This document shows, in pieces, positions 41,705-64,000 of a stretch of 64,000 nucleotides of DNA. Each line of letters starts with the position of its first letter. The first letter of the stretch is position 1. Location: the NCBI RefSeq assembly GCF_024721975.1, contig NZ_JANQBB010000005.1:372001-436000 (forward strand), in the 5' to 3' direction. Under the pieces are notes generated by a model that ran no database searches, was not told where the DNA came from, and saw only the letters and a program-made list of their open reading frames with translations. The position numbers and the translations under genes were made by a program. This DNA is from Paenibacillus endoradicis. Lineage in GTDB: Bacteria > Bacillota > Bacilli > Paenibacillales > Paenibacillaceae.

Positions 41705-41717
41705 GAGGCGTATGTTC

Positions 41718-43424
41718 ATGCTACATGAACTTTCTATTCGCAACTTAGCAGTTATTGAAGAGGCAAGTGTACAATTTCATAATGGCTTTCATGTATTAAC
41801 GGGTGAGACCGGTGCAGGTAAATCAATATTGATTGATGCATTGAGTTTAGTTGTCGGTGGGCGAGGGTCTGCTGATATGGTTCGTTATGGTTGTGATAAA
41901 TCTGAGGTAGAAGCTATGTTTGATTTATCAACTGAACATCCTGTATGGTCGAAGTTAGCAAATCTTGGTATACAACATGACCGAAACGAAATGTTAATTG
42001 TTCGTCGTGAACTAAGTTCTACTGGCAAAAGTAGTAGCCGTGTGAACGGTCAACTTGTTACGATTACAATGTTACGAGAAATTGGAGAAAGCCTTGTTAA
42101 TATTCACGGTCAGCATGAGCATCAATCACTTCTTAAAAATGAGCAGCATCTGGAATGGTTAGATATGTATGGTGGTTCAAGCCTTCTGAATAATAAAAAA
42201 GCTTATGCACAACAATATGAACAATTATTACTTATTCGCTCACAATTACATGAATTAGAAAATACTTCACGTCACAATGTTCAAATGCAAGATCTGTATA
42301 TGTTCCAAATCGAAGAAATTAGTGCAGCCAAATTAAAACCTGGTGAAGATGAGGAATTATTAGAACAACGTAAAATGCTTATGTATGCTGAGAAACGCAC
42401 TTCATCTGTCAATGAAGCTTACGGTTTATTGAATGATGGACAAGGTATAGAAGCATTGAGTAGAGCAATAACTCGCTTAACAGATATCGTTAGTTATGAC
42501 GAAACTGCATTATCTCCAATGATCGAACAGCTTCAAGCTGCTTATTATGGTGCAGAAGATGTAATGTATCAACTTCGTAATTATAGAGATGGGATAGAAT
42601 CTGATCCTGAGCAGCTAATTTACGTAGAGGATCGACTTGATCTTATTCGATCATTAAAACGCAAATACGGTGAAAGTATTGAGGAAATCATTGCCTATTT
42701 GGCGAAAATTACAGATGAACGTGATAAGATGGAAAATCGTGATGAGCGATTGCAGCTATTAAAAGAACAAGAAGAAACAGAGTATAAACAAGCCTATGTG
42801 TTGGCTGATCAGCTATCTGTATTACGTAAGCAGGCAGCTATTAAGCTTTCTAATGAAATCAAAGAACAACTTACTGGTCTACAAATGGGTGCAGCGAAAT
42901 TCGAAGTAGAGATCAATCACACTACTCAAGACGCTGAGGAGCGAGTACGGTTAAGCGCTACTGGAATTGATCATGCAGTCTTCATGATGAGCACGAATCC
43001 AGGAGAGCCTTTGAAGCCGTTACATAAGGTAGCATCAGGCGGAGAAATGTCACGTATTATGTTGGCATTGAAATCTATCTTTGCGCAGATCGACCAAATT
43101 CCTGTACTTATATTCGATGAGGTAGATACTGGAGTAAGTGGACGAGCAGCGCAGGCCATTGCAGAAAAATTATCCTCCCTTGCAGTAGATTGCCAAGTTT
43201 TCTCAATAAGCCATTTACCTCAAGTTGCTTGTATGGCAGATCATCACTATGAAATCCGTAAGCAATTTGTAGGAGAACGAACATATACATCTGTCTCACA
43301 GCTGACAGGAGAACAAAGAATTAATGAACTTGCTCGTATGCTAGGTGGCGTAGAAATAACTGAAAAAACAAAACATCATGCTCAAGAAATGTTAGATTTG
43401 GCTCTGGGCTTGAAAGGTGCGTAA
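41718..43424 (+). CDS. recN: DNA repair protein RecN
   Basis: A 568-residue SMC-like repair ATPase. Walker A in LTGETGAGKSILIDALSL (around residue 30), a long central coiled coil (about 150-370), signature ASGGEMSRIMLALKSI and Walker B IPVLIFDEVDTGVSG. It binds ends at double-strand breaks. ATG at 41718 sits 9 bases after AGGAGG, giving the family start LHELSIRNLAVIEEA. The ATG at 41712 is too close. Confidence 0.96.
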   Translation: MLHELSIRNLAVIEEASVQFHNGFHVLTGETGAGKSILIDALSLVVGGRGSADMVRYGCDKSEVEAMFDLSTEHPVWSKLANLGIQHDRNEMLIVRRELSSTGKSSSRVNGQLVTITMLREIGESLVNIHGQHEHQSLLKNEQHLEWLDMYGGSSLLNNKKAYAQQYEQLLLIRSQLHELENTSRHNVQMQDLYMFQIEEISAAKLKPGEDEELLEQRKMLMYAEKRTSSVNEAYGLLNDGQGIEALSRAITRLTDIVSYDETALSPMIEQLQAAYYGAEDVMYQLRNYRDGIESDPEQLIYVEDRLDLIRSLKRKYGESIEEIIAYLAKITDERDKMENRDERLQLLKEQEETEYKQAYVLADQLSVLRKQAAIKLSNEIKEQLTGLQMGAAKFEVEINHTTQDAEERVRLSATGIDHAVFMMSTNPGEPLKPLHKVASGGEMSRIMLALKSIFAQIDQIPVLIFDEVDTGVSGRAAQAIAEKLSSLAVDCQVFSISHLPQVACMADHHYEIRKQFVGERTYTSVSQLTGEQRINELARMLGGVEITEKTKHHAQEMLDLALGLKGA

Positions 43425-43543
43425 TGTAAGGAAATATGGGAATGTTTTTGTGGTCATAAAACTTGTTGCTCGGGGTAACTTATAGGTACGCCATTGGCGA
43501 TCTACCTATCGTCATGCGATGGAATGACAGGAGCGTGAAAAGA

Positions 43544-44875
43544 TTGGACCCAAAGCAACCTAGACGTATTTTTGGACTAATTCTCGTAATTATGGTCGGT
43601 CTTATCGGAATATCTACACCGATGCAGCAGATTGTAGCTTTTCCCGATGAACTCAGGCTATTTACTGGGCAATTAAAAAACGTACAGTATAGTGTGCCCG
43701 TGCACGCTCGATTAACGGTAGATCCAGAAGTATTGCAAGTGAATGGTTCAACAGAATCTTCTTTGTCAGTAAGTTTGAAAGATCCGTTATCATTACATTC
43801 TTATCAAATTGGTCAGACCCAAATGAAAGTGAAATTATTTGGTAAGATCCCGTTCAAGACTGTGAAAGTAGATGTTGTGCCAGATCTTAAAGTTGTACCT
43901 GGTGGGCAAACCATCGGTGTAAAGGTAAATTCAGCTGGTGTGTTGGTGGTTGGTCATCATCAAGTAGCAGATGAATCCAGTCAGAAACAATCTCCTGGGG
44001 AAGTAGCGGGTCTTCGTCTTGGTGATCTTATTGTTGGTATTAACAGAGACAAAGTGCAGAATGTTAAGCAATTAGGTGAACTATGTGAAAAATATAGTTC
44101 TAATAAAAAGCCCTTGAACATTACTTTTATTCGTAATGGTAAATCGATGCAAACTAAGCTAAAACCAATTTATGATAAAGGTGATCAAGCTTGGAGAATC
44201 GGTCTCTATATTCGTGATTCTGCTGCAGGAGTCGGGACGTTGACATTCTATGCCCCAGATCAAGGTGTATATGGCGCATTAGGACATGTCATTACGGATA
44301 TGGACACGGGAACTCCGATCGTTGTTGGAGATGGTGAGATTTTGCAATCAAGCGTAACATCAATTAATAAGAGTCAAAATGGTGATCCAGGTGAAAAACG
44401 AGCAATCTTTGTTAAAGAGAAAAAAATTCTAGGAAGTATAGAACGTAATACTCCATTCGGAATATTTGGTAAGATGAATGAGATGCCGACGCACAGCTTT
44501 GACAGTGATGCAATTCCAGTTGCATTTGCAGAAGATGTGAAGGAAGGGCCTGCACAAATCTTAACCGTATTAAATGGACAAACGGTAGAACGTTTTGATA
44601 TTGAAGTTGTTCATGTTGCTAAGCAATCATCGCCTGCAACAAAAGGTATGGTGCTTAAGATTACAGATGAACGATTAATAAGTAAAACCGGTGGTATCGT
44701 GCAAGGGATGTCAGGTAGTCCGATTATTCAAGATGGGAAATTAATTGGAGCAGTTACACATGTATTCGTGAATGATCCTACTTCTGGGTATGGCTGTTTC
44801 ATTGAATGGATGTTACAAGATGCAGGAGTATTGTTACACTCAGAAACTGATCTTGAGCAAAATATTGCTTCATAA
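43544..44875 (+). CDS. spoIVB: SpoIVB peptidase (S55), pro-sigma-K checkpoint protease
   Basis: A 443-residue serine peptidase secreted from the forespore that triggers sigma-K processing. N-terminal helix RIFGLILVIMVGLIGIS, PDZ domain around residues 145-225 (GEVAGLRLGDLIVGINRDKV), then the S55 domain with the His region GALGHVITDMDTG and nucleophile GMSGSPIIQDGKLIGAV (serine around residue 390). TTG at 43544 fits the RBS CAGGAG and family length; upstream ATGs lack an RBS. recN-spoIVB-spo0A order is conserved. Confidence 0.93.
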   Translation: MDPKQPRRIFGLILVIMVGLIGISTPMQQIVAFPDELRLFTGQLKNVQYSVPVHARLTVDPEVLQVNGSTESSLSVSLKDPLSLHSYQIGQTQMKVKLFGKIPFKTVKVDVVPDLKVVPGGQTIGVKVNSAGVLVVGHHQVADESSQKQSPGEVAGLRLGDLIVGINRDKVQNVKQLGELCEKYSSNKKPLNITFIRNGKSMQTKLKPIYDKGDQAWRIGLYIRDSAAGVGTLTFYAPDQGVYGALGHVITDMDTGTPIVVGDGEILQSSVTSINKSQNGDPGEKRAIFVKEKKILGSIERNTPFGIFGKMNEMPTHSFDSDAIPVAFAEDVKEGPAQILTVLNGQTVERFDIEVVHVAKQSSPATKGMVLKITDERLISKTGGIVQGMSGSPIIQDGKLIGAVTHVFVNDPTSGYGCFIEWMLQDAGVLLHSETDLEQNIAS

Positions 44876-44881
44876 CGATAA

Positions 44882-44926
44882 GAAGGTCACCATTACAAGA
44901 AAAATGTAATGGTGACCTTCTCTATA
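44882..44926 (+). terminator. Terminator after spoIVB
   Basis: The perfect 15-bp stem GAAGGTCACCATTAC / GTAATGGTGACCTTC is followed by TCTAT. Confidence 0.85.
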
Positions 44927-44953
44927 GTTGTAGTAGCTTATCTTGTGAGCTTA

Positions 44954-45062
44954 TGTCGAATTGTTTCGAAGCTTGTAGTCAAATGTTTATTATATCGAAA
45001 TACTGAAAAAAAATAAAGAAAAATGATTTTCGACAGAAGGAAATCATATTCTCATGTCGAAA
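44954..45062 (+). promoter_or_regulatory. spo0A promoter region with Spo0A boxes
   Basis: TGTCGAA occurs at 44954-44960 and TGTCGAAA at 45055-45062, and the inverse TTTTCGACA at 45027-45035. These fit the 0A-box core TGNCGAA and imply autoregulation, as known for spo0A. AAGGAAAT at about 45037 could be part of a sigma-H -35, but its -10 is unclear. Confidence 0.65.
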
Positions 45063-45122
45063 CTGTAGTGAGACAGATTAATTCGACTCGACATTCATAT
45101 AATTTAAAGGGAGGCTTACATC

Positions 45123-45938
45123 TTGCAGAAGATTGACGTATTATTGGCAGATGACAACCGAGAATTTACTAACTTGTTATCGGAATTTATTTCTGAACAA
45201 AGTGATATGAATGTGTGTGGAGTAGCATTTAATAGAGATGAAGTATTAAGACATTTGGAGAGCGCTAGAAAGTTGCCAGATGTATTAATTCTCGATATCA
45301 TTATGCCTCATTTAGATGGACTAGGAGTTCTTGAAAAGATCAGAGAGATGGATCTTAATCCTATGCCGAAGATTATTATGTTGACGGCGTTCGGTCAAGA
45401 AAATATTACGCAAAAAGCAGTACAATTAGGGGCATCATATTACATATTAAAACCGTTCGATATGGATATGCTTTCTAACCGCATTAGACAATTAGTAGGT
45501 TCTCAATCAGGTTCTATGAGTTCTTCTACATTCAATTCGAGCCTTTCAATGAGCAGATCGAATGTTGTTCCAATCGGTAAAGGCAAAAATCTTGATGCTA
45601 ACATTACAAGTATCATCCATGAAATCGGTGTTCCAGCACATATTAAGGGATATCAATACCTTCGTGAAGCAATTACGATGGTATATAACAATATTGAAAT
45701 ACTTGGATCAATCACAAAAACATTGTATCCAGCTATCGCGGAAAAATTCAAAACGACACCATCTCGTGTAGAAAGAGCAATTCGTCACGCGATCGAAGTC
45801 GCTTGGACTCGCGGCAACATCGACAGCATTAGCCATCTATTCGGCTATACAGTCAATATTAGCAAGTCTAAGCCAACTAACTCGGAGTTTATTGCAATGG
45901 TGGCAGACAAACTAAGGATTGAGCATAAGGTTAGCTGA
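45123..45938 (+). CDS. spo0A: Sporulation master regulator Spo0A
   Basis: A 271-residue response regulator. The receiver has the acidic pocket D10/D11, phosphoacceptor D58 in [13 protein letters not shown], and the lysine in YILKPFD. The C-terminal DNA-binding domain contains [20 protein letters not shown] and [20 protein letters not shown]. It commits cells to sporulation on phosphorylation. TTG start after AAAGGGAGG. The accessory island begins just downstream. Confidence 0.98.
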
Positions 45939-46039
45939 ACGTAGGATACGTAAGGGGTTAAGACTACTGGGAACTGTTTACATCCAGTATATAAAAACCA
46001 ATAAACTTGTATTGAATCCTATAAACTTTTTCCATCTCA

Positions 46040-46078
46040 CCCGATAAACCTTTTTGGTTTATTGGGTTTTGTGTTTTT
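46040..46078 (+). terminator. Terminator after spo0A
   Basis: CCCGATAAACC-TTTTT-GGTTTATTGGG (11-bp stem with one G-T pair) is followed by TTTTGTGTTTTT. It is the last clear core signal before the integrase. Confidence 0.85.
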
Positions 46079-46101
46079 AGGAAAAGAGATGGAGGATTCA
46101 C

Positions 46102-47085
46102 ATGAAGTTATCGGAATTGGAGTTTTATTTAGAGGATTTTTTAGCTTATTGTCAAAACAAAAATTTATCACGAAAGACCATTAGTTCATATGAACAATCT
46201 TTGAAACTATTTGTAGCTTATTTAAAGAATCTGCATGATGTGGATAAGGTGAAAGAAGTTCGTACAGGACATATTAGGCAGTATATTGCTTATGTACAAG
46301 AGCGAGGGAAGTATACGGTAGTGAATCGAGAGTCATCGAAACTGGTTAATTTTCCTGAAAACAGAACAGATTTTAAAAAAGAGGTTTCATCAATTACAAT
46401 AAATAACTACATTCGTAACATTAAGGTTCTTTTTAATTGGTTAAAACAAGAAGGGGAGTTAATCAAAAATCCTGTTGATAATATCTCACAAATAAAAACT
46501 GTAAGAAGACAGAAAAAGGGGATAAGTCAAGAAGAGTTTAATGGATTGATTGAAAAATTTGATTATACCAAGTTTCATGGATATCGAAATAAAATGATCG
46601 TGTTATTGTTGCAAGATACTGGCATGAGAATCGGTGAATGCTTAGAATTAGTTGTCGATGCAATAGACTTTAAGAGTAAAATGATTCTATTGACTAAAAC
46701 TAAAGGTAACAAAGAACGTTATGTATATTTTTCCAATGTGATGCAAAGGGAACTAAAACAATATTTGAAATTTAAAGATAGATATACCGATAGCGAATTA
46801 CTATTCCCGACGACAAAAGGAACTAATTTAAGTATTCAATCATTTGAGAAGCAATTAAAAGATACTAGTAAGATGGCAGGGTTAGATGTACATCCTCACA
46901 TGATAAGAAATAACTTTGCTCGGCATTATTTGTTGAATGGCGGGGATTTCTATACGTTATCTCGAATTTTGGGTCATAGTTCTGTAACGGTAACCGAACA
47001 AGCCTATATGGATTTAACCCGTGAAGAAATTGCGAAGAAATATCAAAATCATTCGCCACTTAGCAAGTGGAAGCTACAAAGTTAA
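46102..47085 (+). CDS. Tyrosine recombinase/integrase
   Basis: A 327-residue phage-type integrase. N-terminal SAM-like DNA-binding domain (FLAYCQNKNLSRKTISSYEQSLKLF) and a catalytic domain with the expected residues: R in TGMRIGECLEL, K in TKTKGNKERYVYF, H-x-x-R in HPHMIRNNFARHY, H in RILGHSS and nucleophile Y in QAYMDL. RBS ATGGAGG. First gene of the island, 163 bases after spo0A. It is probably the enzyme that integrated the element here. No tRNA target is visible. Confidence 0.92.
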   Translation: MKLSELEFYLEDFLAYCQNKNLSRKTISSYEQSLKLFVAYLKNLHDVDKVKEVRTGHIRQYIAYVQERGKYTVVNRESSKLVNFPENRTDFKKEVSSITINNYIRNIKVLFNWLKQEGELIKNPVDNISQIKTVRRQKKGISQEEFNGLIEKFDYTKFHGYRNKMIVLLLQDTGMRIGECLELVVDAIDFKSKMILLTKTKGNKERYVYFSNVMQRELKQYLKFKDRYTDSELLFPTTKGTNLSIQSFEKQLKDTSKMAGLDVHPHMIRNNFARHYLLNGGDFYTLSRILGHSSVTVTEQAYMDLTREEIAKKYQNHSPLSKWKLQS

Positions 47086-49128: not shown

Positions 49129-49150
49129 ATTTTAAAGGGAGATGACGAAA

Positions 49151-51016
49151 ATGAAATTGTTACTAGACACACAAACTTATACTCAGAAACCACAAGGTTC
49201 GGAGATTGGTAAAATAAACAATCGGATAGCTGATTGTGAAAGAGAAATTACGTTGGATGAACTAGCAATTGAAATCACGAAAGGTAAAACTTTTGTTCCA
49301 GCAACATTAAAACAGATAAGTGGGGAAAGAAAGAGACAAAAAAGGAACTGGCAGAGTCAACAGATAATAGCACTAGATATTGACGAGGGATTGTCATTAG
49401 AAGAAGCCCTAGAAAATCAATTTATAAAAGAACATGCTTCATTTCTATATACAACATTTTCCCATACAACGGATAAACATAAATTTAGAATAGTATTTGC
49501 ATTGGATAAGCCTATATACGAATATAGCCATTTTGAAAGTATTTAGCTATATCTCTATAAAAAACTTCCCCAAGCAGATACAGCTTGTAAAGATGGAGTA
49601 CGCCTTTTCTTCGGTGGAAGAGAGTTGCATACAATTGATTTTTGTAATCGCCTTAAAGTAGATGAGATAGTCCCTTCTAAAAAGGGTTTTGAAGCGGACA
49701 TAGAGTTAATATATAATATGTCTGCTTCGAAACCCCAATCATTAATACCTAGTCATTTATCAAACAAACTGCAAACAGAATATGGTAGAAATAAACATAG
49801 TTCAAACTTCAATGATATCAACAGTAAGAACATTAGTTCACTTCAAACTAAGCTACAGCCAAAACACATTGAATTGTTCAATATGAACGAAGTACATGAC
49901 TATCTAAAGAAGCAGGATTTACGAAAGTTTTTAGGCGTTCCAAACAGCGGGAATTTTTTTGATATTTTCCATGATGAATTGAGTCCAAGTTCTAGCATAT
50001 TCATATCTAATCAAAATAACGGACATAATTTGTATAAATGCCATAGTTCAAGTCACCGATTTCTCGGGACAATAATTCAAATAACCGAACGACTCCTTAG
50101 ATGTAGCAATGTTGAAGCGGAAGATTTCTTAATGCAAGTGTACGATATTAAACTCGTAGAAACAGAACTACAAAAACAAATGAAAAAAACACTGGATGCG
50201 AACAAACGTTTGCTAATGTCTCCTGAACTAGAGAAACTTTACCCCTTTTTTTACAAAGTAATTAACCCATTTAGGGATGATTTGTATATTTTATTTGATT
50301 TCATTAAAGAGTACTTACCCTCTGGGGATGACCCTGAAATTATGTTTTATCACTCACTGAGGACTATTGCTAAATACCTAAAGATATCTCATGATGCGAC
50401 AAATCGAAGAATAGGCTTATTTGTATTACTTGAACTAATTCTAAAATACGATGAAGAAAATATTCCAGAGGAATTGGTGCAGAGATTCTCAGAATGGAAG
50501 AAACAAAAATCCCACAAGTATAGTAACTCTGTCTATAAAATCCCTAATTACTCTTATGATTTATTGAACATTATTGATTTGAAATGTAAAAAATACATAG
50601 AAAATGGCATGACTTTAAAAACAATCAGTTATGAGGGAGTATTTAGGAATTTTGGGCGTGAAGAAGCCAATAGAGTATTTCCACAAGACAAAAATAAGGA
50701 AATCAATGAATTAAACGAACAAGTGTCTCGAATATTAGAGAAAACCCTGCTAAGTTTAATTCAAATGAATGGATTCACAACAGAAAAACAGGTTTTAGGT
50801 GAAGTTAAACTTTACTTCAAGGGTCAACAGCAATACAAATTAGAACAACTAAAGCGATGCTTAGGCGAGATAATCGAAAATTACTGTCTTTGCAGAGTTC
50901 GATTAGATAAAGTTTTAAAAGAAAAATTAGTCTTTCAAGGAAATGGCTACCCATTCGTTATAATGTTTGAAGAGGATTTAAACGCCATGAAAGAGGACCT
51001 AGAAAAAAGCGCATAA
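49151..51016 (+). pseudogene. Primase-like replication protein interrupted by one in-frame TAG
   Basis: Two halves (49151-49546 and onward to 51016) lie in the same frame, separated only by TAG at 49544-49546. Read through, the product is about 621 residues. The N-terminal half has AEP-primase-like features (QIIALDIDEGLSLEEAL, TTFSHTTDKHKFRIVFALD, and after the stop CKDGVRLFFGGRE). The middle resembles a CHC2-like primase zinc region (NLYKCHSSSHRFLGTI). The C-terminal half is helical and unassigned. RBS AAGGGAG precedes 49151. Either a recent nonsense mutation or a suppressed stop. Confidence 0.65.
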
Positions 51017-52701: not shown

Positions 52702-55700
52702 TTGGTGAGCAATGCTACGATAATTCAGACTAATGACAATATATTTATAGGTTCCGATACTGCTACATCAACAACTATAGGCGATCAGTTATATAGAATA
52801 GATACAAGAGCGACCAAGTTATATCAAATTGATAACTTGGTTTTGTTTTGTTCTGGAAACCTGAACTATTGCTATAGATTAGTTGACGAGTTCTTGTTGC
52901 AAGAGGTTAGAGACGTAAAAACCATCAAGAAGTTGTTGATGGAAAGCCATAATGGAGAAGATGTAGAGGTTGTTATATGCGAGGTAAAAGATAAAAAAAC
53001 ATTTGTGTATCAACTATCTCCTTATAACGACTTTGAAATTATATGTTTTACAGATATTCCAATCGGGGGAGTAAATGTTGTAACAGCAGGGATTAAAACG
53101 AAAGAGTCTCATAACCTTGCATACGACAATTTACTTAACAGAAAGAATGTTTCCGATGTATATAAAACGATATTTGATGATATCTCATATGAAGGAATTG
53201 GTGGTACTTTAACTGTGTACAGACTTAATGAAAACGGAGTGAGTAAGTATCTGACTCATGAGATTAAGGAGAAGATAGATTTGAAATTTCTTACACTAAG
53301 TGCTGTATTAAATCAATTCCAAAAGAATCTGATAGTGGGAGAGCGCATCTATGGAAAAATCTTTATGGGTGTCAACTTGGCTCTCGAAGATGAAGATGGC
53401 GTATTGAAGTTCCAAGGCTCTAAAGGTGAAATATTTGACCGCAACGGAAGGCTTGTAATGAAGCTAGGTTTAGTTGAAGAGAATCCTGATAGATTTGGTC
53501 TATGGTCATTTAATGACACTACTAGAGTTAAAATGGACAGCATAGAAGGCTTCGTGATCGACAGAGCGACAACTGACACAACTAATCATTCTGATGGATG
53601 GGAGAAGCTTATGTGGGCTGACCCGAAAGATGGAACATTATACACTAAAGGTTTGATTGCCGAGAACATTAAGATAGTTAATAAGATTGGCGATGTGATT
53701 CTTGATGCTGAAAATGGCTACTTCAATATCGGAGACTTCGATAACATTGTTATGGATAATAAGTTTACTTCATTAGAGAAGATGCAATTCATTACTGAAC
53801 TGTACAAGATTAATTCTGGTTATCACAGAACGCTTGAACAAGCAGAAGAGTATAAGAAGTCACAGCGTGATGATGTGTTCGATATGGAAGCACAATTCTT
53901 CACGAAGTCACCAAGTACAATTGATCTATACTCAACACAGCCGCTTACTGATGCTTACTTTGCGTTAATGACTTATATCGCTCAATATATTGATGTTGTA
54001 TCGGCAGACCCATTAGATATCAATGTAAACTCTCCTATGACAGACAGGACAGATGAGATTCCTGATCGTGCAGAGTTCATTTTGAAATTCAAGAACTACT
54101 ACGATGCAGAGATGAATCTTAGTAATAAAATAGAAGACGCTCAGTTCTATTCTGGTCTTAACATGGGGCAATATTACAATAACGTAGTTATTGGTCAATA
54201 TGGTTTCATTGCTCTACGTAATGATGGCAAGTACCGCTCAGTGTTGAATGCTACGAATGGTTTAGCATTACAAAAGTGGGAGAAGAACGCATGGGTCAAT
54301 AAGGTATATGCTTCTATTGGAAACTCTTCATATGAAGATGGAACATTGATTGCAGAAGATTTAGTTGCTAAACGCTTGCGTATCGAGACTAAACTTGGCG
54401 ATGTGTTGCTTGATGCAGACGCATTAAACTTTGACTTCTCTGTACTTAAATCTATCATATTAGATGATGTAATTATGTCACCAGAAAAGATAACATTAGC
54501 CAATCAAATTAAGATCATCACAAAACAATATGTCGCCCTAAAAGAGCAAATTACCAAATACGCAACGGTTATTTATAGTGAAAGAGACTCTTCTTACTAT
54601 GGTCTTGATACAGCTAAAACAGAGTTAGAAAAACTAGGAACTGAACTTGTTACCACGTATGACGCATTGACTAGCTATATGGCTCCTGTGTTTGTCGATA
54701 TGAACGCAACAACACATATCATCAATGACCTGAAATCCACTAGACTTATCTTCCATACTAAATGGGAGGACTTCTACAAAGCATATGAGGGTGGCAGAGC
54801 GAAGCTTGCTGACTTCTTAGAGAAGTCTTCGTTGCAGTTAGGTCGTAACTACAACAATACTGTTATTGATGCTTTGAATGGCATTGTGGTCACTAGAGGT
54901 GACGTTATGCAAAGAGCGATCATGAATGGTAATAATAATGGTGGTTTCAGACTTCAAAAAAATACTAACACAGCACAGTCACCAGTATGGGTTGATAAGT
55001 TCTATGCTGATTATGAAGGTAATTTATATGCCGAGGAACTACGTGCAATCAGATTGAGAATCTTGTCTGGTGATGGTGACATGCTTATTGATGGGGACGC
55101 TAAGAAGTTCTATCTTAATAAGTTTGATCTTATTGGTGCAGGACTTATTACATCTGAGCATATTATCACTAACACTATTACAGCAGACGATGGATATATT
55201 GCCGACTTAACAGTAAATCACTTGAAAACAATAGCGAAAGATGGAGAAGAAGGAGAGTATGTAGACTACATTGATATCAAAGATAATGAAGCGAGATGGA
55301 TTACTGGTAAGATTGTTACAAAGATTCCTGCAAAAGACTCTAGGGGTAATGATCTCTATTGGAAGGATTCAAGTAAAAAATACTTAACTACTGATGTAAC
55401 TCCTTACATTGCCTATGACTATGGAAAATTAGAAGAAACAGATAAGTTAAAGTTTGCTTTCGAGGATTCTGGTCAAGCTTCGTATCCGTATAGTGTTTGG
55501 GGAGCAGGAGACGGTATTAAAAAGAATACTGGAATAGAATATGCGGATAGTGCAAGAGGGTATCTTTACAAAACCTCGGATGCTTTTCACTTTAGATATA
55601 ATGCAAGTAACTCAGGGGACTTACGAGAGATCAAGTTACAGGATGACGGGATTGCAATTCATTCGAAAAATAAGCCTATTAAGATATCAGGTAAAGAAGT

Positions 55701-55917
55701 TACTATAAAATCTATAGACGGCTCAATTCAACTCGTTCATAACTCAGGGACACATATTAAGATAGATTCGACAGGGGATAATATTCAACTTCAACTCTAT
55801 AATGGTAGCGTTGTTGAGATGAATAACTCGGGATTAAACGTAGAGATAAATGGAAATATAGATATAGCTGCAACTGGAAGTATTAAACTCACAGGTTCAA
55901 GGATTGATTTGAACTAA
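52702..55917 (+). CDS. Large phage-tail-like protein with proteasome/Ntn-like N-terminus and three repeats
   Basis: A 1071-residue protein without signal or membrane segments. Residues about 3-180 resemble an HslV/proteasome (Ntn) fold: TIIQTNDNIFIGSDTATST, KLYQIDNLVLFCSGNLNYC, GGVNVVTAGIKTKES. No N-terminal Thr/Ser/Cys is generated, so peptidase activity is doubtful. Then three related units spaced about 230 residues, each with a core like KIGDVILDAENGYFNI (about 328), KLGDVLLDADALNFDF (about 563) and GDGDMLIDGDAKKFYL (about 788). The C-terminus (from about 960) is beta-helical. The layout resembles siphophage minor structural/tail-fibre proteins. RBS AAAGGAGTG, TTG start. No capsid, portal or terminase gene is nearby. 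Confidence 0.75.
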   Translation: MVSNATIIQTNDNIFIGSDTATSTTIGDQLYRIDTRATKLYQIDNLVLFCSGNLNYCYRLVDEFLLQEVRDVKTIKKLLMESHNGEDVEVVICEVKDKKTFVYQLSPYNDFEIICFTDIPIGGVNVVTAGIKTKESHNLAYDNLLNRKNVSDVYKTIFDDISYEGIGGTLTVYRLNENGVSKYLTHEIKEKIDLKFLTLSAVLNQFQKNLIVGERIYGKIFMGVNLALEDEDGVLKFQGSKGEIFDRNGRLVMKLGLVEENPDRFGLWSFNDTTRVKMDSIEGFVIDRATTDTTNHSDGWEKLMWADPKDGTLYTKGLIAENIKIVNKIGDVILDAENGYFNIGDFDNIVMDNKFTSLEKMQFITELYKINSGYHRTLEQAEEYKKSQRDDVFDMEAQFFTKSPSTIDLYSTQPLTDAYFALMTYIAQYIDVVSADPLDINVNSPMTDRTDEIPDRAEFILKFKNYYDAEMNLSNKIEDAQFYSGLNMGQYYNNVVIGQYGFIALRNDGKYRSVLNATNGLALQKWEKNAWVNKVYASIGNSSYEDGTLIAEDLVAKRLRIETKLGDVLLDADALNFDFSVLKSIILDDVIMSPEKITLANQIKIITKQYVALKEQITKYATVIYSERDSSYYGLDTAKTELEKLGTELVTTYDALTSYMAPVFVDMNATTHIINDLKSTRLIFHTKWEDFYKAYEGGRAKLADFLEKSSLQLGRNYNNTVIDALNGIVVTRGDVMQRAIMNGNNNGGFRLQKNTNTAQSPVWVDKFYADYEGNLYAEELRAIRLRILSGDGDMLIDGDAKKFYLNKFDLIGAGLITSEHIITNTITADDGYIADLTVNHLKTIAKDGEEGEYVDYIDIKDNEARWITGKIVTKIPAKDSRGNDLYWKDSSKKYLTTDVTPYIAYDYGKLEETDKLKFAFEDSGQASYPYSVWGAGDGIKKNTGIEYADSARGYLYKTSDAFHFRYNASNSGDLREIKLQDDGIAIHSKNKPIKISGKEVTIKSIDGSIQLVHNSGTHIKIDSTGDNIQLQLYNGSVVEMNNSGLNVEINGNIDIAATGSIKLTGSRIDLN

Positions 55918-56525: not shown

Positions 56526-57539
56526 ATGTCAAGAAAAAGACAAGCGGTTTTCACAAAATCAGAAATGACTAATCTATTAGGTGTAAGCGAGAAGCAACAT
56601 GAGGTGTACATGCCTAATGAAATTTTCAATGACCTCACAGAAGCGTTTAAGGAGAATGAGTTACAAGGCAAAACTTCGACGCATATTGCATTTGCGTATT
56701 CATACTATTTTTTGGCGAATTACATGTGGAGATATGCACGGTATCGTCACGTTGATGATAAATCAGGAGAAAGCCCAATCAATGAAGGTTTGATTAAACA
56801 GATTCTGGGTTTTCCTGCCAAATCGGAACAGTACACATATCTTACTAAGAACAAATCTGGACTACTACAAAATCTAGGTTATATTCGCAAAGAAACAGAT
56901 AAGCCCTGTAGGTACTTCTATGAAAATAACGGTAAGAAAGAAGTAGTGTTTGTCTATGAAAGCGATTATCCAGAGGTTTATGGTAACAATAAAAATTGGA
57001 AAGTATCAATGCCTGTAAAGGGAATTTGGCGATATGAGGAATCAGAGTTAGATAACTGTGAAGACGGAACATTCTATATGATTCAGAAAACTCACAAGAT
57101 TGACATTGATGTTTTTATCTACTGTATGACTGATGCAGAATTAGGTGTTGAAGGATTTTACCTTTACAGTTTCTTAAAGTATTCAACAGACAAATTCAAA
57201 GCATTCGATTGTTCGAATAAAGGAATGGCATATCTAACAGGTATGTCTATTGATGAGGTTAAGAGTCAACTTTACAAATTAGAAAAACGTAATATGATTG
57301 AAAATGACCATAAACCATTCTGTCGGAACAAACCGAATGATAAGCAAACTAAGGCAAACACATACAGAATTAATGAAAGATATGAATTTATTTCAAATAA
57401 ATTTCAGTTTAATACAATTCCTAAGCAACGCAAGATTTCGGCTGAAAGATACGAAATTGAAATTGGGTGGGCAAATGAACGTGAGATTAATGGCGATATT
57501 GAAGACTATGAAGAGATGAATGATTTGCCATTCGATTAA
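56526..57539 (+). CDS. Replication-protein-like/winged-helix protein, uncertain
   Basis: A 337-residue basic protein without membrane segments. An N-terminal region (HIAFAYSYYFLANYMWRYARYRH) and a middle part resembling a tandem winged helix (INEGLIKQILGF, FYLYSFLKYSTDKFKAFDCSN, GMAYLTGMSIDEVKSQLYKLEKRNMIEND) recall replication initiators of plasmids and phages. The C-terminus is acidic. RBS AGGAGAG. The AT-rich cruciform 400 bases upstream supports a replication role, but the family is not firmly recognised. Confidence 0.6.
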   Translation: MSRKRQAVFTKSEMTNLLGVSEKQHEVYMPNEIFNDLTEAFKENELQGKTSTHIAFAYSYYFLANYMWRYARYRHVDDKSGESPINEGLIKQILGFPAKSEQYTYLTKNKSGLLQNLGYIRKETDKPCRYFYENNGKKEVVFVYESDYPEVYGNNKNWKVSMPVKGIWRYEESELDNCEDGTFYMIQKTHKIDIDVFIYCMTDAELGVEGFYLYSFLKYSTDKFKAFDCSNKGMAYLTGMSIDEVKSQLYKLEKRNMIENDHKPFCRNKPNDKQTKANTYRINERYEFISNKFQFNTIPKQRKISAERYEIEIGWANEREINGDIEDYEEMNDLPFD

Positions 57540-57546
57540 TGGTGTA

Positions 57547-57583
57547 ACATATCCCATTCCTATTAAGTAGTGGGATATGTTTG
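57547..57583 (+). terminator. Terminator after the Rep-like gene
   Basis: ACATATCCCA / TGGGATATGT followed by TTGTTT. Confidence 0.8.
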
Positions 57584-57983
57584 TTTAGAACTATCCTGTA
57601 CGTTAGCCTAATTAACTTCAACAGAATCATGTGATTACATACCAACGATAACATATCCATCCAGCAACAGCATACTAATTATAAGCGATACGATGCGGTC
57701 AGAAGGTCATAATGCATTGTATTAGTTATACATTAGCCAATAATAATGAGTCTCATAAGTGGTGATAGGGATGTTAATGAATGCCTGAAAATATAATGCG
57801 TAATTCTCTATGCTTGAAAATTGTCGATAGTGTACCGATACATCAACGAAAAGGATAAATAGCGATCAACTACAGTTACTACGCGATCATTGTTTGCTGA
57901 CTTCTTAGCGTGAGGTCAAACAACTCAAAGAATGACTCCTAGGGCTGTTTGTTATGGATAAAATACGAGTTTTATTGAAATAC
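57584..57983. other. Non-coding segment of about 400 bases
   Basis: Stops are frequent in all frames and no RBS-supported ORF is found. It contains GTGAGGTCAAACAACTC and GGGCTGTTTGTTATGG, weakly complementary (AAACAA/TTGTTT). No assignment. Confidence 0.4.
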
Positions 57984-57997
57984 GAAGGAGCTTATTA

Positions 57998-58063
57998 ATG
58001 AGTGGAAATAATGATAATCACATTAAAAACTTACGCAGTCAACTGGAAGACATTATGTTTTAG
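57998..58063 (+). CDS. Possible 21-residue peptide
   Basis: The ATG follows GAAGGAGC at good spacing. The frame (MSGNNDNHIKNLRSQLEDIMF) ends in TAG and a strong terminator follows at 58119. Might be a small protein or a truncated gene start. Support is the RBS only. Confidence 0.3.
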   Translation: MSGNNDNHIKNLRSQLEDIMF

Positions 58064-58118
58064 TAGTAACATCTGAATGTTCCGCCCCATTTTGAGCGTA
58101 GATGACTGATGTTATAGC

Positions 58119-58157
58119 AAAGAAGACCACTTCATAATATCGAAGTGGTCTTCTTTG
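58119..58157. terminator. Bidirectional terminator
   Basis: AAAGAAGACCACTTC / GAAGTGGTCTTCTTT with an ATAATATC loop; T-runs on both strands. Shared by the + unit and the - lipoprotein gene. Confidence 0.85.
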
Positions 58158-58219
58158 TGTTACCGATCAAGTTATTTGTATGTGCAATAATCATAGTTAA
58201 CGGGAGTGATACTTTTATA

Positions 58220-58870
58220 CTATTCTTGAATAGCAGTAACTATACCATCTTCCAGATACACATATCTATCATAGTATACCCATTGTTCATGAACACCATT
58301 TTTAGTAGTTGTCTTATTTATATCAGTTGGTTTACCCCAAGTTGAAGTTAAGACTTTTTCTGCTGTCATCCCAATAGATGGTGCGTAGTATTTTTCATTA
58401 TACTCTCTTCTCGATTTATCAGCTTCCGCTTGTGATTCTGCCGCTCTTTTATCAAGTTCTGCTATTTGTTTACCTGACAAAGCCGTATAATATGACATTA
58501 ATGTTGAAGGAAGAATGATTCTCTGGTCATCATCATAATACATATCTGAAATATCTCTATAATTTTTATCACATTCGTCGTCATCTACAATAGAATCTTT
58601 ATTCATACAGCCAGCAAACGTATGTAGCATAGACATTACAGCGTCATCCTGCTTATTGTATGAGACGATTGTTTCTTGTGCTTCTGAATACATTTTATTA
58701 GTAAGTAAACATAAAACTTGGCTTTTTATGTTGTCATCTATTATTACATAATCGCTACAAGGAACTACTACCTCTTGAACAGCAATATTCTTTTCTTGTT
58801 CAAGACTGGTATTCCCACAAGCTGTTAAAATTACTGATAATGCGAGTAATACAATTATATTCTTTATCAT
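58220..58870 (-). CDS. Lipoprotein with SmpA/OmlA-like C-terminus
   Basis: A 216-residue lipoprotein: NIIVLLALSVILTACGNTS gives a lipobox LTAC with cysteine at residue 18. The middle is acidic and helical with several cysteines. The C-terminal domain IGMTAEKVLTSTWGKPTDINKT...WVYYDRYVYLEDGIVTAI is the SmpA-like pattern also seen at the end of the 47454 gene. RBS GGGAGATAA. It is antisense to neighbours and likely cargo acting at the cell surface. Confidence 0.75.
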   Translation of the reverse strand: MIKNIIVLLALSVILTACGNTSLEQEKNIAVQEVVVPCSDYVIIDDNIKSQVLCLLTNKMYSEAQETIVSYNKQDDAVMSMLHTFAGCMNKDSIVDDDECDKNYRDISDMYYDDDQRIILPSTLMSYYTALSGKQIAELDKRAAESQAEADKSRREYNEKYYAPSIGMTAEKVLTSTWGKPTDINKTTTKNGVHEQWVYYDRYVYLEDGIVTAIQE

Positions 58871-59241
58871 AGTTTATCTCCCTCTGTGTTTGATGCTTAT
58901 ATGTATCACAGATCATATTACCGTATATAAACAGATTTTCCAATGAAATTTCTGTCATATGCTCCTATAAATAATGTAAATCCTTTTATCCGCTTGTATG
59001 GAAAGGAAGTGATTAAAAATTTCATCTGACTTTTAAGGTTGGTATGAGAATGGATAAGAACACTTAGAAAAAAATGCTACATTCAAGAATCCTTAGAGTA
59101 GTTGTCCAGAAGTTTCGACTTCTGCCATATTATAAAAACAGTTTAAAAGTCTTAAACATTTATACTTGAAATAGTCCAGAAGATAGTCTAAAATAAATAG
59201 TATAGAAGTTTATTAAGATTTAGACGAATGGAGCGATTACA
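58871..59241 (+). promoter_or_regulatory. Resolvase leader with candidate res site
   Basis: Direct repeats TCCAGAAG at about 59105 and 59169, the hairpin CAGAAGT-TTCG-ACTTCTG (59107-59124), and GTTTAAAAGTCTTAAACATTTATAC (from 59141). Serine resolvase genes usually carry their res subsites in this position. 58871-59098 shows nothing else. Confidence 0.5.
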
Positions 59242-59838
59242 ATGACATTGTACGGTTATGCTAGAACATCGACAGTTGGGCAGGACAATGGACTAGAGGC
59301 TCAGAAGCAACTTCTTAAAGAAGCAGGGTGCGCTAACATCTATCATGAGCAAGTGACTGGTACATCTACAGAGAAGCGTTCTGCGTTGAAGGAACTATTA
59401 GAAGCAATGTCAAAAGGTGATACGCTTGTAATAACCAAAATAGATCGTCTAGCACGTTCCATTATAGACTTGAACAGCATTGTCAATGACTTGCTTGCCA
59501 GAGGCATTAATGTGAAGTTCTTAAAAGACAATCTACACTTTGAAGTTGTTGAGAAGGCTAGTCCTATGCAAACTCTAATGTTTAACATGCTAGGCTCATT
59601 TGCACAATTTGAGAGAGATTTGATAGTAGACCGTACAACAGAAGGTAGAGAACGTGCTAAAGCTAAAGGTACTCACATGGGTCGCCCTGCACTGGATGCA
59701 AGCATCATCAAACGTGCATTGAATCTGTACGCTGAGCGTGAGACAAATGGACTGACAGTAAGTGAGATCATCAAGTCGACTGGCATACCGAAGGCTACAT
59801 TGTACGCTGAATTAAAGAAGCAAGAGAAGTCAAAGTAG
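59242..59838 (+). CDS. Serine recombinase (resolvase/invertase family)
   Basis: A 198-residue small serine recombinase. Catalytic serine in YGYARTSTVGQDNGLEAQ (S10), the ITKIDRLARSIIDLN motif with essential arginines, and GSFAQFERDLIVDRTTEGRERA. The C-terminal HTH is SEIIKSTGIPKATLYAELKK. It could resolve multimers of the element's circular form or act in a transposon. RBS GAGCG is weak. A terminator follows at 59853. Confidence 0.92.
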   Translation: MTLYGYARTSTVGQDNGLEAQKQLLKEAGCANIYHEQVTGTSTEKRSALKELLEAMSKGDTLVITKIDRLARSIIDLNSIVNDLLARGINVKFLKDNLHFEVVEKASPMQTLMFNMLGSFAQFERDLIVDRTTEGRERAKAKGTHMGRPALDASIIKRALNLYAERETNGLTVSEIIKSTGIPKATLYAELKKQEKSK

Positions 59839-59852
59839 TCCATATAGATTGA

Positions 59853-59888
59853 ACAAGAAGCCCATCGTAGAATGATGGGCTTCTTGTC
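59853..59888 (+). terminator. Terminator after the resolvase
   Basis: ACAAGAAGCCCATC / GATGGGCTTCTTGT, perfect 14-bp stem, then CATTTTC. Confidence 0.85.
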
Positions 59889-60212
59889 ATTTTCATGGAA
59901 AATGAAGCGGGTAGGGATTCACCTGCAATTTACTACATTTAAAGTAATATACATGAGGATTAAGGTATAAGGGGGGAATGGTTAACAGTAGATTTACAAT
60001 TAGATTAGACAAGGAACAGGGGTACACTTCCATGCTAAAACCCTGCTAGAAAATTTTACGATACGAAAGAGTGGGAGGTTATTGGTAATTAGTTTGAATA
60101 ACTGGAAAAACAACAAAAAATACAATTGCGTAGAAAAAATGAATTATTTCTATTTTCGACAAAATATGGTATACATAATTAGATTGATATTACTATTTTA
60201 AATGAGGGGTTT
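59889..60212. other. Gap with a ribbon-helix-helix-like remnant
   Basis: AAGGGGGGA is followed by ATG at 59978 and a 23-codon frame, VNSRFTIRLDKEQGYTSMLK, ending at TAG 60049. The start resembles Arc/CopG proteins (RFTIRLDKE), then breaks off. The rest is AT-rich leader DNA of the nuclease gene. No other gene is seen. Confidence 0.4.
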
Positions 60213-61301
60213 ATGATTGAAAGAAAACTCATAGATACAATAAAACTAATACCCGATGATAGAAGTGGTGACCACGCACAAGATGGTTTCGACTATCAAT
60301 TCTCTACAGCTATATATTTGATGTTAAGTCATTTGAAAGATAAAAGAGACTTCGCATTTATGTATGAAAAGATAGATGATTATGTTTTTGTAAGTGATAA
60401 ACTTAATTCAGTTGACTTGTATCAGTCAAAAAGTACTTCTCGTACATTAACGGAAAATGAACTGATAAAAAGTGATCCAGTTAAAATTAAGAAAAGTAAA
60501 AATAAAACAAAAGATAATACCGATGTAGCGGAACCTAAAACTACAGGATTGTCCATATTAGAGAAGATTCAAAACAATATAGACACTGTAACAACACATA
60601 TGGGTGAATGTGTTGTTAAAGGACACTTACTTTGGAATAGTGATTATGAATTTGGTGCGAATTTAGTTAAAGATAGTATAATTACAACTAAATCTGATGC
60701 TCTTGTTTTAGACGATTTATCTATTAAGGTTAAAGATGGTTTAGTAACAAAGACTAGTAAGTCTGATTTTTCTTGGGAAAATATTAAAGTTAATAGATTG
60801 TTGTCAAAAAAGCATCACTTTGATTTAACATGTAAACATATAGAAAAAGTAATACATTCTCTGATTGGAGAAAATAATTCATATAGTGAAGCATTTTATA
60901 ATAGTTTGTTTATTAAAATAAAAGAAATAAGAATCAGTAAAAAAGAACTCACCAGTGAGTTTTTGTTACATCAAATAAAAACTATCAGTTCACTTGAATC
61001 AAAAAAAATAGAAAAAGAAAATTATAGACATTTGATAAGTGATGATGACTATAGAAACAATTTATTGCATATTGCAGTTAATGAGTTGAGTTCTTTGAAA
61101 AGTTTACCCGAATATCCTAAAAAAGAAGCATATAATTTGATTTGTGAGTATGTCGATATTAACTATTCTATAATAAAATACCCTCATAAGGTTTTTGATG
61201 AGATTTCTGCACTGGAAAAATATTCAGAGATATGTCTTATAAATTCGGAAGAAAATATAAAAGCAATGATAATTTTAGCATTCCTAGAGAAGGAGGTATG
61301 A
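60213..61301 (+). CDS. DUF4297-type (Cap4-like) nuclease of a predicted defence pair
   Basis: A 362-residue protein. Residues 19-75 match the DUF4297 PD-(D/E)xK-like core: G19-D20 with HAQDGFDYQF (21-30), E52 and D55/D56 in YEKIDDYVFVSD, and Q71-x-K73 in LYQSKS. The remainder is helical and charged, plausibly the sensing or ATPase-contact part. Known relatives cut dsDNA as effectors of CBASS (Cap4) and Lamassu. The stop is 3 bases from the ATPase start, so the pair is coupled. The DNA is markedly more AT-rich than the core. RBS AGGGG. Confidence 0.75.
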   Translation: MIERKLIDTIKLIPDDRSGDHAQDGFDYQFSTAIYLMLSHLKDKRDFAFMYEKIDDYVFVSDKLNSVDLYQSKSTSRTLTENELIKSDPVKIKKSKNKTKDNTDVAEPKTTGLSILEKIQNNIDTVTTHMGECVVKGHLLWNSDYEFGANLVKDSIITTKSDALVLDDLSIKVKDGLVTKTSKSDFSWENIKVNRLLSKKHHFDLTCKHIEKVIHSLIGENNSYSEAFYNSLFIKIKEIRISKKELTSEFLLHQIKTISSLESKKIEKENYRHLISDDDYRNNLLHIAVNELSSLKSLPEYPKKEAYNLICEYVDINYSIIKYPHKVFDEISALEKYSEICLINSEENIKAMIILAFLEKEV

Positions 61302-61304
61302 TTT

Positions 61305-62993
61305 GTGGATTTGATATACAAGGACTTTGTAATCCTTTCTCCACATGATAAAAAAGCATTTGAAATTAATTTTACCAGTGGAGTGAATCTTATATATGGA
61401 CTAAAGGATACAGGAAAGTCAACTATATCAAGGGCTATGATGTACACCTTTGGTTGTGATGTTAAAAATTTTACATTAAAGGAAAGTAATCCTAATAATA
61501 TATATATTCTTAGATTCACTATACAAGAAGATATGTATGTTTTACTTAGAAAGAAAATAAAAAGTGGCAAGGGTAAAAACTTTTTTAAACTATATAAGAA
61601 CGAACATTTTATTGATTCATTTTATAGTACAAAAGAATTTACTAATTATCTCAATCAAATTTTTAATATCGCTGTTGTGACTATGGATAATCAATCAAAC
61701 GAAACCAAGTTATATCCTAATCACATATTCTCTCTTTTTTACACAGACCAAGATAACAGTTGGCAAAATTATTTATCATCGACATTCTCGAATTTGGCTT
61801 TTATTAAGCCATACAGAAAATTAATATTAGAATATTTTACTGGTAGTAGAACTAATGAGTATTACGATTTGAGATTAGAACAGCAAAAAAAAGAGATAGA
61901 AATCAATCAAGTCAAGGCATTATTGGACAGTAAGAAATTAATTTTCAAGGAAAATCAAAATAATATTAAAGTTATTGAAAATGTTAATGAAGAAGAGTTT
62001 AAAAAACAGTACGCTATTATATTGAAAATATATGAAAACATCATTAATACTGAACATGAACTTAAAAAGAAAATTAATAAGGGATTATATCTAAAAAATA
62101 AGTACTCCGAGACATATGAGGTACTTACATCTAATATTAAAGATTACATAGAACCTGAAATAGATGACGAATGCCCAAATTGTCACCAGAATATAGTGAG
62201 AGAATTTCAAGATGATTATGAGTTGTTTGTTGCTCGGGAAAACCTTATTAATGAACGTGATAAAGTGATGATGTTTCTGAAACAAATTAATGAAGAGATA
62301 GAAATAGAAAAAAATGAGCTAAAAGAACTGAAACAAGAAGATGTTAAATTGAGAAGTAAATTGGATGCAGACGGTTCATTATTACAATTAAGTGATAGGG
62401 CAGATAGTTATGCTCTTAACAGAATAAATATGAATCTTGAAAAAGAAATAGGTGTATTAAAAATTCAGTTTGACGATTTAAAGGAAAGTAAGAAAAAAAT
62501 TGATAGTAAGATACGAAAACAAAAGGACGTAGACCTTTCACAAAAATATAAAGAATTAATGAAGGAAAGCTTTGATTTATTAGACATTGAATTTTCATAT
62601 AGGTCTTTTTATGATAATAACTTTGAATCAGTAAAAATATCACTTTCAGGAACAACAAAAGTACAGGCTTTTATTGTTCAATACCTAACAATTTATAAAT
62701 TAATGAATCAAAATAAGGACGTTATTAAAATACCTATCATAATTGATTCATATATTAAAGACCATTTTAGTGAGCAAGATGCTGATAAAACAACCAAATA
62801 TATTTTTAATACATTAGAGGAAAATTCGCATCAAGCTTTCGTATTTATTACTGATAGCGAACAGACTAAAAAATCAATAAATTTTGATGCAATTAACGCA
62901 ATTAAACTTAATGGAGTTAAAGGTTTACTAACAGATAAATACGATAAAGTGTACACAGAATACGGGAAATACGTTGAAGGTGAATTGGAATGA
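61305..62993 (+). CDS. Rad50/SMC-like ATPase of a predicted defence pair (LmuB-like)
   Basis: A 562-residue ATPase. Walker A G32LKDTGKST40, an N-lobe to about 190, coiled coil (about 190-285), C290-P-N-C293 zinc-hook-like turn, second coiled coil (about 300-420), signature-like L447SGT, Walker B IPIIIDS (D481), and FVFITDSEQ in place of the H-loop. The Ser after the Walker B Asp resembles the D(T/S)P variants of DndD-like ATPases. RBS AGGAGG inside the end of the nuclease gene. Lamassu and ABC-3C systems pair such an ATPase with a nuclease. No third gene is present. Confidence 0.75.
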   Translation: MDLIYKDFVILSPHDKKAFEINFTSGVNLIYGLKDTGKSTISRAMMYTFGCDVKNFTLKESNPNNIYILRFTIQEDMYVLLRKKIKSGKGKNFFKLYKNEHFIDSFYSTKEFTNYLNQIFNIAVVTMDNQSNETKLYPNHIFSLFYTDQDNSWQNYLSSTFSNLAFIKPYRKLILEYFTGSRTNEYYDLRLEQQKKEIEINQVKALLDSKKLIFKENQNNIKVIENVNEEEFKKQYAIILKIYENIINTEHELKKKINKGLYLKNKYSETYEVLTSNIKDYIEPEIDDECPNCHQNIVREFQDDYELFVARENLINERDKVMMFLKQINEEIEIEKNELKELKQEDVKLRSKLDADGSLLQLSDRADSYALNRINMNLEKEIGVLKIQFDDLKESKKKIDSKIRKQKDVDLSQKYKELMKESFDLLDIEFSYRSFYDNNFESVKISLSGTTKVQAFIVQYLTIYKLMNQNKDVIKIPIIIDSYIKDHFSEQDADKTTKYIFNTLEENSHQAFVFITDSEQTKKSINFDAINAIKLNGVKGLLTDKYDKVYTEYGKYVEGELE

Positions 62994-63000
62994 TAGTTAA

Positions 63001-63037
63001 GAACTGTAAGAGATATCTCTTACAGTTCTTTTTTTCT
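63001..63037 (+). terminator. Terminator after the defence pair
   Basis: GAACTGTAAGAGAT / ATCTCTTACAGTTC, a perfect 28-bp palindrome, then TTTTTTTCTTT. Confidence 0.9.
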
Positions 63038-63053
63038 TTATTAACCAATTTAT

Positions 63054-63494
63054 TAGACATATTATATGACAGGTATTAGGGTGTCTGATTTAGTAGCTTT
63101 AGACCGATTAGACTTGGATGTAAGTGACCTCAAAGGCTCACTAATTGTGAGGTTGGGCAAAGGTAACAAGGAGGGTACACTACCACTAAACGTTGAAGCA
63201 AGAAGGGTTATAGAAAGATATTTGGAAGAACGAACAGATAGTAATCCAGCATTATTCATAAGTAGCAGACAAGAGCGTATAAGCATTCGAAGCGTTCAGT
63301 ATCTATTGGAGAAGAATGGACATAATGCCCATCAGACACGCCACAGTTTCATTACAGGGCTTGTACGTGCAGGAGAAGATATTAGTGTGATACAAAGTCT
63401 TAGCGGTCATAGTTCAGCGGATATGATTTTAAGATACAGTATGCCATCCGAGGAAGATAAGCAGAAAGCTGTAGATAATATATTCAAGGACTAG
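63054..63494 (+). pseudogene. 5'-truncated tyrosine recombinase (catalytic domain only)
   Basis: 142 codons from ATG 63066, starting abruptly within the first active-site motif (TGIRVSDLVALDRLDLDV). R in TGIRVSDL, K in GKGNKEG, H/R/H in AHQTRHSFIT, LSGHSSADM and Y in RYSMP are all present, but the N-terminal DNA-binding half is missing and a TAG at 63054 closes the frame upstream. No RBS. XerC/D-like rather than similar to the 46102 integrase. It is a remnant of a recombinase cut when the defence segment arrived, or of an older element. Confidence 0.75.
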
Positions 63495-63521
63495 CCACTC
63501 AATATGAGTGGCTTTTTATAA
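63491..63521 (+). terminator. Terminator after the recombinase remnant
   Basis: AGCCACTCA / TGAGTGGCT with ATA loop, followed by TTTTATAATT. Confidence 0.8.
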
Positions 63522-63538
63522 TTGAGGAGCGGGTGGGG

Positions 63539-63637
63539 ATGGTTTGCAGTTGGAAGGCGTTTGTGGAATCGGTCAAAGATTGCAACACATACAGCCAGAG
63601 ACTCGGTTATGATTTAGAGCGATACGTAACAGACTAA
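63539..63637 (+). CDS. Possible 32-residue ORF resembling an integrase N-terminal fragment
   Basis: The ATG follows GAGGAGCGGGTGGGG. The frame contains SWKAFVESVKDCNTYSQRLG then YDLERYVTD. The pattern W..F.......T...Y...L..Y recalls the SAM-like core-binding domain of tyrosine recombinases, but it is far too short. Could be debris of the missing half of the 63066 gene. Confidence 0.3.
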   Translation: MVCSWKAFVESVKDCNTYSQRLGYDLERYVTD

Positions 63638-63873
63638 AGTCCTAATATATGGTATAGTTTGATTGAATAATAGATTGTTGTTACTAACAGGATGCTAGAG
63701 TTCGGTAGAAAATTAAGTAAGCATTGATTTGATTCTCAATCGCACACAGATAAGGTATGGATTTATCTTAGAGTGCAAGTTTATTATTTTTTCAGATCAG
63801 TATTCAGTTACTGCAGCACTCATGTTTTTGATGGTGCCTATACAAAAGAATGCACATAAATAGGAGGAGCATT
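63638..63873. other. Non-coding gap
   Basis: No RBS-supported ORF. AT-rich; the RBS TAGGAGGAG of the next gene is at its right end. The right boundary of the island may lie here, but no direct repeat pairing with 45940-46100 was found. Confidence 0.4.
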
Positions 63874-64000
63874 ATGCAAGTTTATTGTAGTAGTTGTAAG
63901 CAAAAAACGAATCATGAAACAGTAGTTGAACCGTTTGAACAAAAATCGAGTATTGACGACGATATTCAATGGTCTCAAAAATACTATATTGTTAAATGTA
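63874..64000 (+). CDS. N-terminus of a zinc-ribbon protein (DUF4145-like), cut by window edge
   Basis: The ATG follows AGGAGGAGC. 42 residues are visible: VYCSSCKQKTNHETVVE with a CxxC pair, then QKYYIVKC starting a probable second cysteine pair. The C-x2-C-x3-T-x-H start followed by W...YxIxxC is usual in DUF4145 proteins, often found near defence or mobile genes. The rest is outside the window. Confidence 0.5.
   Translation, partial: MQVYCSSCKQKTNHETVVEPFEQKSSIDDDIQWSQKYYIVKC

Follow-up and report, generated by a model that had tools for sequence, protein, structure and literature searches.

Two-gene Lamassu systems were reportedly known already from the 2018 survey that first mapped defence islands. 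A review (PMC10586767) describes both type I Lamassu and systems that lack LmuC, and a solved example is found in the PDB (codes 9ux7 and 9ux8), where the title of 9ux7, "LmuAB-DNA complex", is the source for its lack of LmuC and the LmuB chain has 562 amino acids. Type II Lamassu, represented by DdmABC and LmuACB (PDB codes 9uxh, 9hqx, and 9nyg), also contains an LmuA nuclease and an LmuB of the same fold class as the pair described here but includes LmuC, and its LmuB is larger: the 9uxh, 9hqx, and 9hqu chains have 627-653 residues, and 9nyg_B has 571 modelled residues with numbering up to 652. The HerA-DUF4297 system shares a related nuclease domain and a two-component composition, and its nuclease partner is a HerA hexamer rather than a Rad50-like ATPase (PMC11291478). 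In CBASS the Cap4 nuclease is placed beside a cyclase, whereas the nuclease here has LmuB as its partner. Excerpts of PMC12904381, PMC11811056, and PMC11084316 complete the literature used.

The window, by which we mean the whole 64-kb stretch of DNA that was analysed, carries two adjacent genes that very probably constitute a type I (two-gene) Lamassu system in which LmuB would act as a DNA sensor holding the LmuA nuclease inactive until infection. What the analysis shows of the pair, namely its profile matches, conserved pairing, conserved motifs, and predicted folds, makes it a newly seen and distant relative within an established anti-phage system whose function it may be expected to share.

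Identification and Organization of the Gene Pair

The features of the locus are collected in Table 1. The profile matches of both proteins exclude chance, with LmuA scoring 32.9 bits against the Pfam family PF14130 (Cap4_nuclease, cutoff 26.2) and E 4.5e-17 against the PADLOC LmuA model, and LmuB matching the PADLOC LmuB model with E 6.3e-60 over residues 3-557 of 562. These searches had been proposed in a preliminary description of the DNA, which took the genes for a DUF4297 nuclease and a Lamassu-like ATPase resembling Rad50, and both PADLOC calls, LmuA and LmuB, bear that assignment out. The best fold match of each predicted model is a chain of one and the same entry, 9ux7, and 9ux7_A is the top PDB match of LmuB by profile as well as by fold, the profile match spanning nearly the whole length. 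The pair resembles the solved type I complex in the predicted folds, the length of LmuB, and a Walker B serine; the sequences are only 21% (LmuB) and 14% (LmuA) identical, making it a distant relative. The locus adds a two-gene Lamassu from a Gram-positive bacterium whose sequence has diverged widely from that of 9ux7.

Table 1. Features of the lmuA-lmuB locus and its flanks, numbered from the first base of the window
Feature	Position	Strand	Description
Serine recombinase (invertase/resolvase type)	59242..59838	+	Flank, outside the system; PF00239 1.5e-40, phrog_125 2.5e-59
Terminator-like hairpin	59853..59887	+	Between the serine recombinase and the pair
lmuA	60213..61301	+	Cap4/DUF4297 nuclease effector, 362 aa, ATG start
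LmuA core residues	E52 60366-60368; D56 60378-60380; Q71 60423-60425; K73 60429-60431	+	
lmuB	61305..62993	+	Rad50/SMC-like ATPase sensor, 562 aa, GTG start
LmuB Walker A	61398..61424	+	GLKDTGKST, residues 32-40; Lys38 in 68/68 homologues listed, 2/70 gapped
LmuB zinc-hook motif	62172..62183	+	CPNC, residues 290-293; C290 in 68/70 and C293 in 68/70 homologues listed
LmuB ABC signature	62643..62660	+	LSGTTK, residues 447-452; Ser-Gly in 69/69 homologues listed, 1/70 gapped
LmuB Walker B	62733..62750	+	PIIIDS, residues 477-482; Ser482 replaces the catalytic Glu
Intrinsic terminator	62999..63040	+	Follows lmuB; 14-pair palindrome (62999-63030) with a T run/T-rich tail behind it
Tyrosine recombinase, C-terminal piece	63066..63494	+	142 aa, outside the system; PF00589 2.9e-21 from profile position 34; phrog_216, phrog_1

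Both open reading frames are present as first described, on the same strand and separated by 3 bases in the ORF list, and a ribosome site (AAGGAGG) ahead of the lmuB GTG lies within the 3' end of lmuA. The suggestion that the pair has its own terminator agrees with the hairpin and T run after lmuB. Terminator-like sites number two in the region 59800-63100 compared with 0.5 expected, and because they bracket the pair, lmuA and lmuB probably form their own transcription unit. A promoter scan of both strands stayed at chance level, with 18 sites compared with 20.4 expected. The pair is strikingly AT-rich, as had been remarked, with a G+C content of 27.2% compared with 38.3% for bases 1-46000, and only 0.4% of the windows of the same length (step 50) across the 64 kb are lower.

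The locus displays the features of type I Lamassu: an SMC-like LmuB, judged by the PADLOC model and 9ux7_A; an adjoining LmuA whose N-terminal effector domain is in this case the Cap4 nuclease; an operon without LmuC; and conserved pairing among homologues. No same-strand ORF of at least 60 amino acids separates the two genes from each other or from the recombinase gene on either side, in keeping with the earlier observation that a third component is absent. Type II Lamassu and ABC-3C were considered for the locus and rejected, as the middle component is absent and the gap is only 3 bases.

The LmuB ATPase

The Walker A motif, the CxxC hook between coiled coils, and the IIIDS sequence of the preliminary description are each located in LmuB, and in the predicted model the hook is flanked by two coiled-coil arms formed by helices 229-286 and 301-354. 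Residue counts refer to the 70 homologues listed, which are the candidates sharing most words and include near-identical groups, so they do not represent 70 independent cases. The nearest LmuB among the matches listed is 86% identical and comes from Paenibacillus sp. FSL H7-0690.

The Walker B aspartate is present in 69/69 of the homologues listed and is followed by threonine (63) or serine (6). Across 12 LmuBs, comprising that of the window and 11 distant ones, the catalytic position holds serine 11 times, alanine once, and glutamate never, and the Walker B of 9ux7_A reads MDS, again with serine at this position. Because serine or threonine occurs in all of the 69 homologues and serine in the LmuB of 9ux7, the IIIDS Walker B is a family trait, and the replacement of the catalytic glutamate is, on the alignments, normal for this kind of LmuB and not "unusual" as originally worded. 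The H-loop histidine, noted earlier as missing, is indeed lacking in LmuB, and no histidine is found at residues 517 and 518 in 69/69 homologues listed. The H-loop of the distant LmuBs aligns loosely, with a histidine nearby in the plasmid loci L025 and L026, and the loss is claimed for the close LmuB clade only. The description of the ATPase as smaller than usual depends on the reference chosen: it holds relative to the approximately 650 amino acids of the review, and it fails relative to 9ux7 and to the eight best PADLOC LmuB models, which have 550-582 positions.

The LmuA Nuclease

Residues E52, D56, Q71, and K73 are invariant across a 7-sequence alignment. In a wider set of 14 LmuAs, counting that of the window, D56, Q71, and K73 are unchanged, and residue 52 is either Glu or Asp. 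The E52-D55-QxK73 core initially proposed is thereby retained at E52, Q71, and K73; D55 varies, and the invariant acid is D56. Loss of this core among relatives had been set beforehand as an outcome that would count against the preliminary description, and the core is kept in both alignments.

Two other nuclease contexts were considered and set aside. For CBASS (Cap4), Pfam shows no cyclase in the six ORFs at 56526-63494, in a window that ends 1 kb past the pair. Hachiman protein A (PDB code 8zue) matches LmuA by profile and by fold, but the neighbouring gene is LmuB, and within the same six ORFs Pfam finds no helicase family beyond a score of 13 bits, below threshold, for the recombinase piece.

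Pairing in Relatives

Rare pairing among homologues had been named as evidence against the preliminary description, which expected conserved pairing; in each of the 13 opened loci where the sequence ahead of LmuB could be read (13 of 13), the gene immediately upstream is of the LmuA type and no other gene intervenes. One more opened locus, L026, begins inside LmuB, so its upstream side is unreadable. The opened loci come from genomes (L001-L005 and L030-L032), plasmids (L023-L026, from 4 of the 29 records that matched), and phages (L021-L022, from 2 of 13 matching records, 12 of the 13 being Klebsiella phages with the same match). The source of L030-L032 was a set of 398 genomes of one phylum, four of which matched at 1e-10, one of these being the genome of L001 itself. 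LmuA was recognised by BLAST to the LmuA of the window in L001, L002, L003, L005, and L022, by record annotation (DUF4297 or dsDNA nuclease) in L023-L025, and solely by its location, its size, and the aligned core motif in L004, L021, and L030-L032. For three of six LmuA relatives, the window's own excluded, the contig sizes match those of contigs with LmuB relatives (193459, 1120229, and 6951 bases).

The LmuB alignment gave 11 matches in 299 genomes of the phylum of the Clostridium that carries L001, one of full length and already known (G001), one partial that proved to be LmuB on further look (G154), and nine short and weak. A single-sequence scan of genome contigs returned 61 pattern matches and a scan of viral contigs with the LmuB alignment returned 57, none confirmed in either case, and a DNA-level phage search with bases 58900-64000 gave no match.

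Proposed Mechanism

From the relatives we infer complex formation, DNA sensing, nuclease release, the outcome for the cell, and slow hydrolysis. LmuB is probably a dimer joined by its CPxC hook that would bind ATP and DNA, and LmuA and LmuB would associate in a complex on DNA. The DNA sensed would most likely belong to an invading phage or plasmid, in the form of its ends or of structures arising in replication; the reviews describe sensing of DNA ends and secondary structure (hairpins) largely for three-component systems. LmuB would keep the Cap4-type nuclease of LmuA inactive until such DNA is met, whereupon LmuA could be freed or oligomerised and would cut double-stranded DNA. Infection would thus be stopped, probably at the expense of the cell, cell death being what the reviews would lead one to expect; the Lamassu section of PMC10586767 mentions abortive action and probably defective hydrolysis. 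The first description likewise took the pair for an anti-phage module, which it probably is.

As the catalytic glutamate and the H-loop histidine are both missing from LmuB, ATP may perhaps be held rather than turned over, and activation is possibly a one-way switch. In PMC10586767, a Walker B Glu-to-Gln replacement is given for LmuB generally, citing Vibrio work, and low hydrolysis is expected; serine or threonine at the catalytic position would presumably act on hydrolysis as Glu-to-Gln does. Since serine or threonine (alanine once) occupies the site in every aligned LmuB, the H-loop histidine is gone from the close clade, and glutamine is reported for the Vibrio type, where the LmuB of the window has serine, it can be put forward tentatively, at somewhat less than even likelihood, that type I LmuB is an ATP-holding, hydrolysis-defective one-shot sensor and that the two Lamassu types lost hydrolysis by separate routes, arriving at the same irreversible trigger. 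The residues kept by the relatives are Glu/Asp-52, Asp-56, Gln-71, and Lys-73 in LmuA and, in LmuB, the Walker A lysine and the Walker B aspartate with no catalytic glutamate, and they raise the question whether any ATP turnover takes place in type I LmuB. The uniform loss of this glutamate is the modestly new point; the papers behind 9ux7, 9hqx, and 9nyg may already state the Walker B residue.

Alternative Explanations

The pair had been offered as a possible new subtype of Lamassu or ABC-3C because LmuC and the H-loop histidine are missing and the ATPase is small. The absence of an LmuC-like frame between or beside the genes and of a histidine at the H-loop position would fit such a subtype, but LmuC-less type I systems already appear in PMC10586767, the Walker B and H-loop traits are common to all 69 homologues, and an LmuAB complex is already deposited with LmuB of equal length and a Walker B serine, so the proposal is largely refuted and very improbable. 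An affiliation with HerA-DUF4297-like two-component ATPase-nuclease systems has a negligible probability given an ATPase that is LmuB/Rad50-like by profile and fold and carries coiled coils and a CPxC hook.

The pair could also be the inactive remains of an old defence system left behind amid decaying mobile-element genes, as might be read from the broken replication-like gene, lone tail gene, and recombinase piece nearby and from the lack of a promoter above chance; with both frames open, a ribosome site and terminator present, and the core residues kept, this is improbable. That the pair serves its carrier mobile element against competing phages more than it serves the host is a better prospect, if still on the unlikely side. 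It is placed between two recombinase genes and downstream of phage-like genes, but no complete phage is visible and the far end of the element is outside the window. Such a role is compatible with the type I Lamassu assignment.

Genomic Surroundings

Genes of the RecN/SMC, SpoIVB, and Spo0A families at 41691-45938, upstream of the pair and taken as chromosome, identify the host as a spore-forming member of the Bacillota; the nearest LmuB would suggest Paenibacillus. A tyrosine integrase gene (46102, within 45123-47085) begins right after the Spo0A-family gene at 45123-45938, and a mobile element is possibly inserted beside this sporulation regulator at 45123-47085. From 46102 onward, remnants of phages and mobile elements seem to be pieced together in a mosaic whose far end is beyond the window. 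Two consecutive frames at 49142-51016 match the ends (1-134 and 212-613) of the 617-position phage family phrog_25531 and represent a broken gene, perhaps related to replication; the first also weakly matches phage primase and helicase families. The lone tail gene at 52702-55917 encodes 1071 amino acids. Residues 211-1071 share 50% identity (over 80%) with the minor tail protein of Brevibacillus phage Sundance, the first 210 residues lying outside that match, and the protein is 35% identical over 93% to Psychrobacillus phage Perkons in a two-piece match spanning 2-997.

A phage-type regulator follows at 56526-57539, and at 58220-58870 the minus strand encodes a protein that by eye is a small lipoprotein-like protein, without a Pfam family and with a C-terminal part matching phrog_11546 (9.1e-12). 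The recombinase genes on either side of the pair (Table 1) agree with the island first described. Directly after the tyrosine recombinase piece, the third frame of 63495-63640 resembles by eye the N-terminal part of a tyrosine recombinase, which would place the pieces in reversed order.
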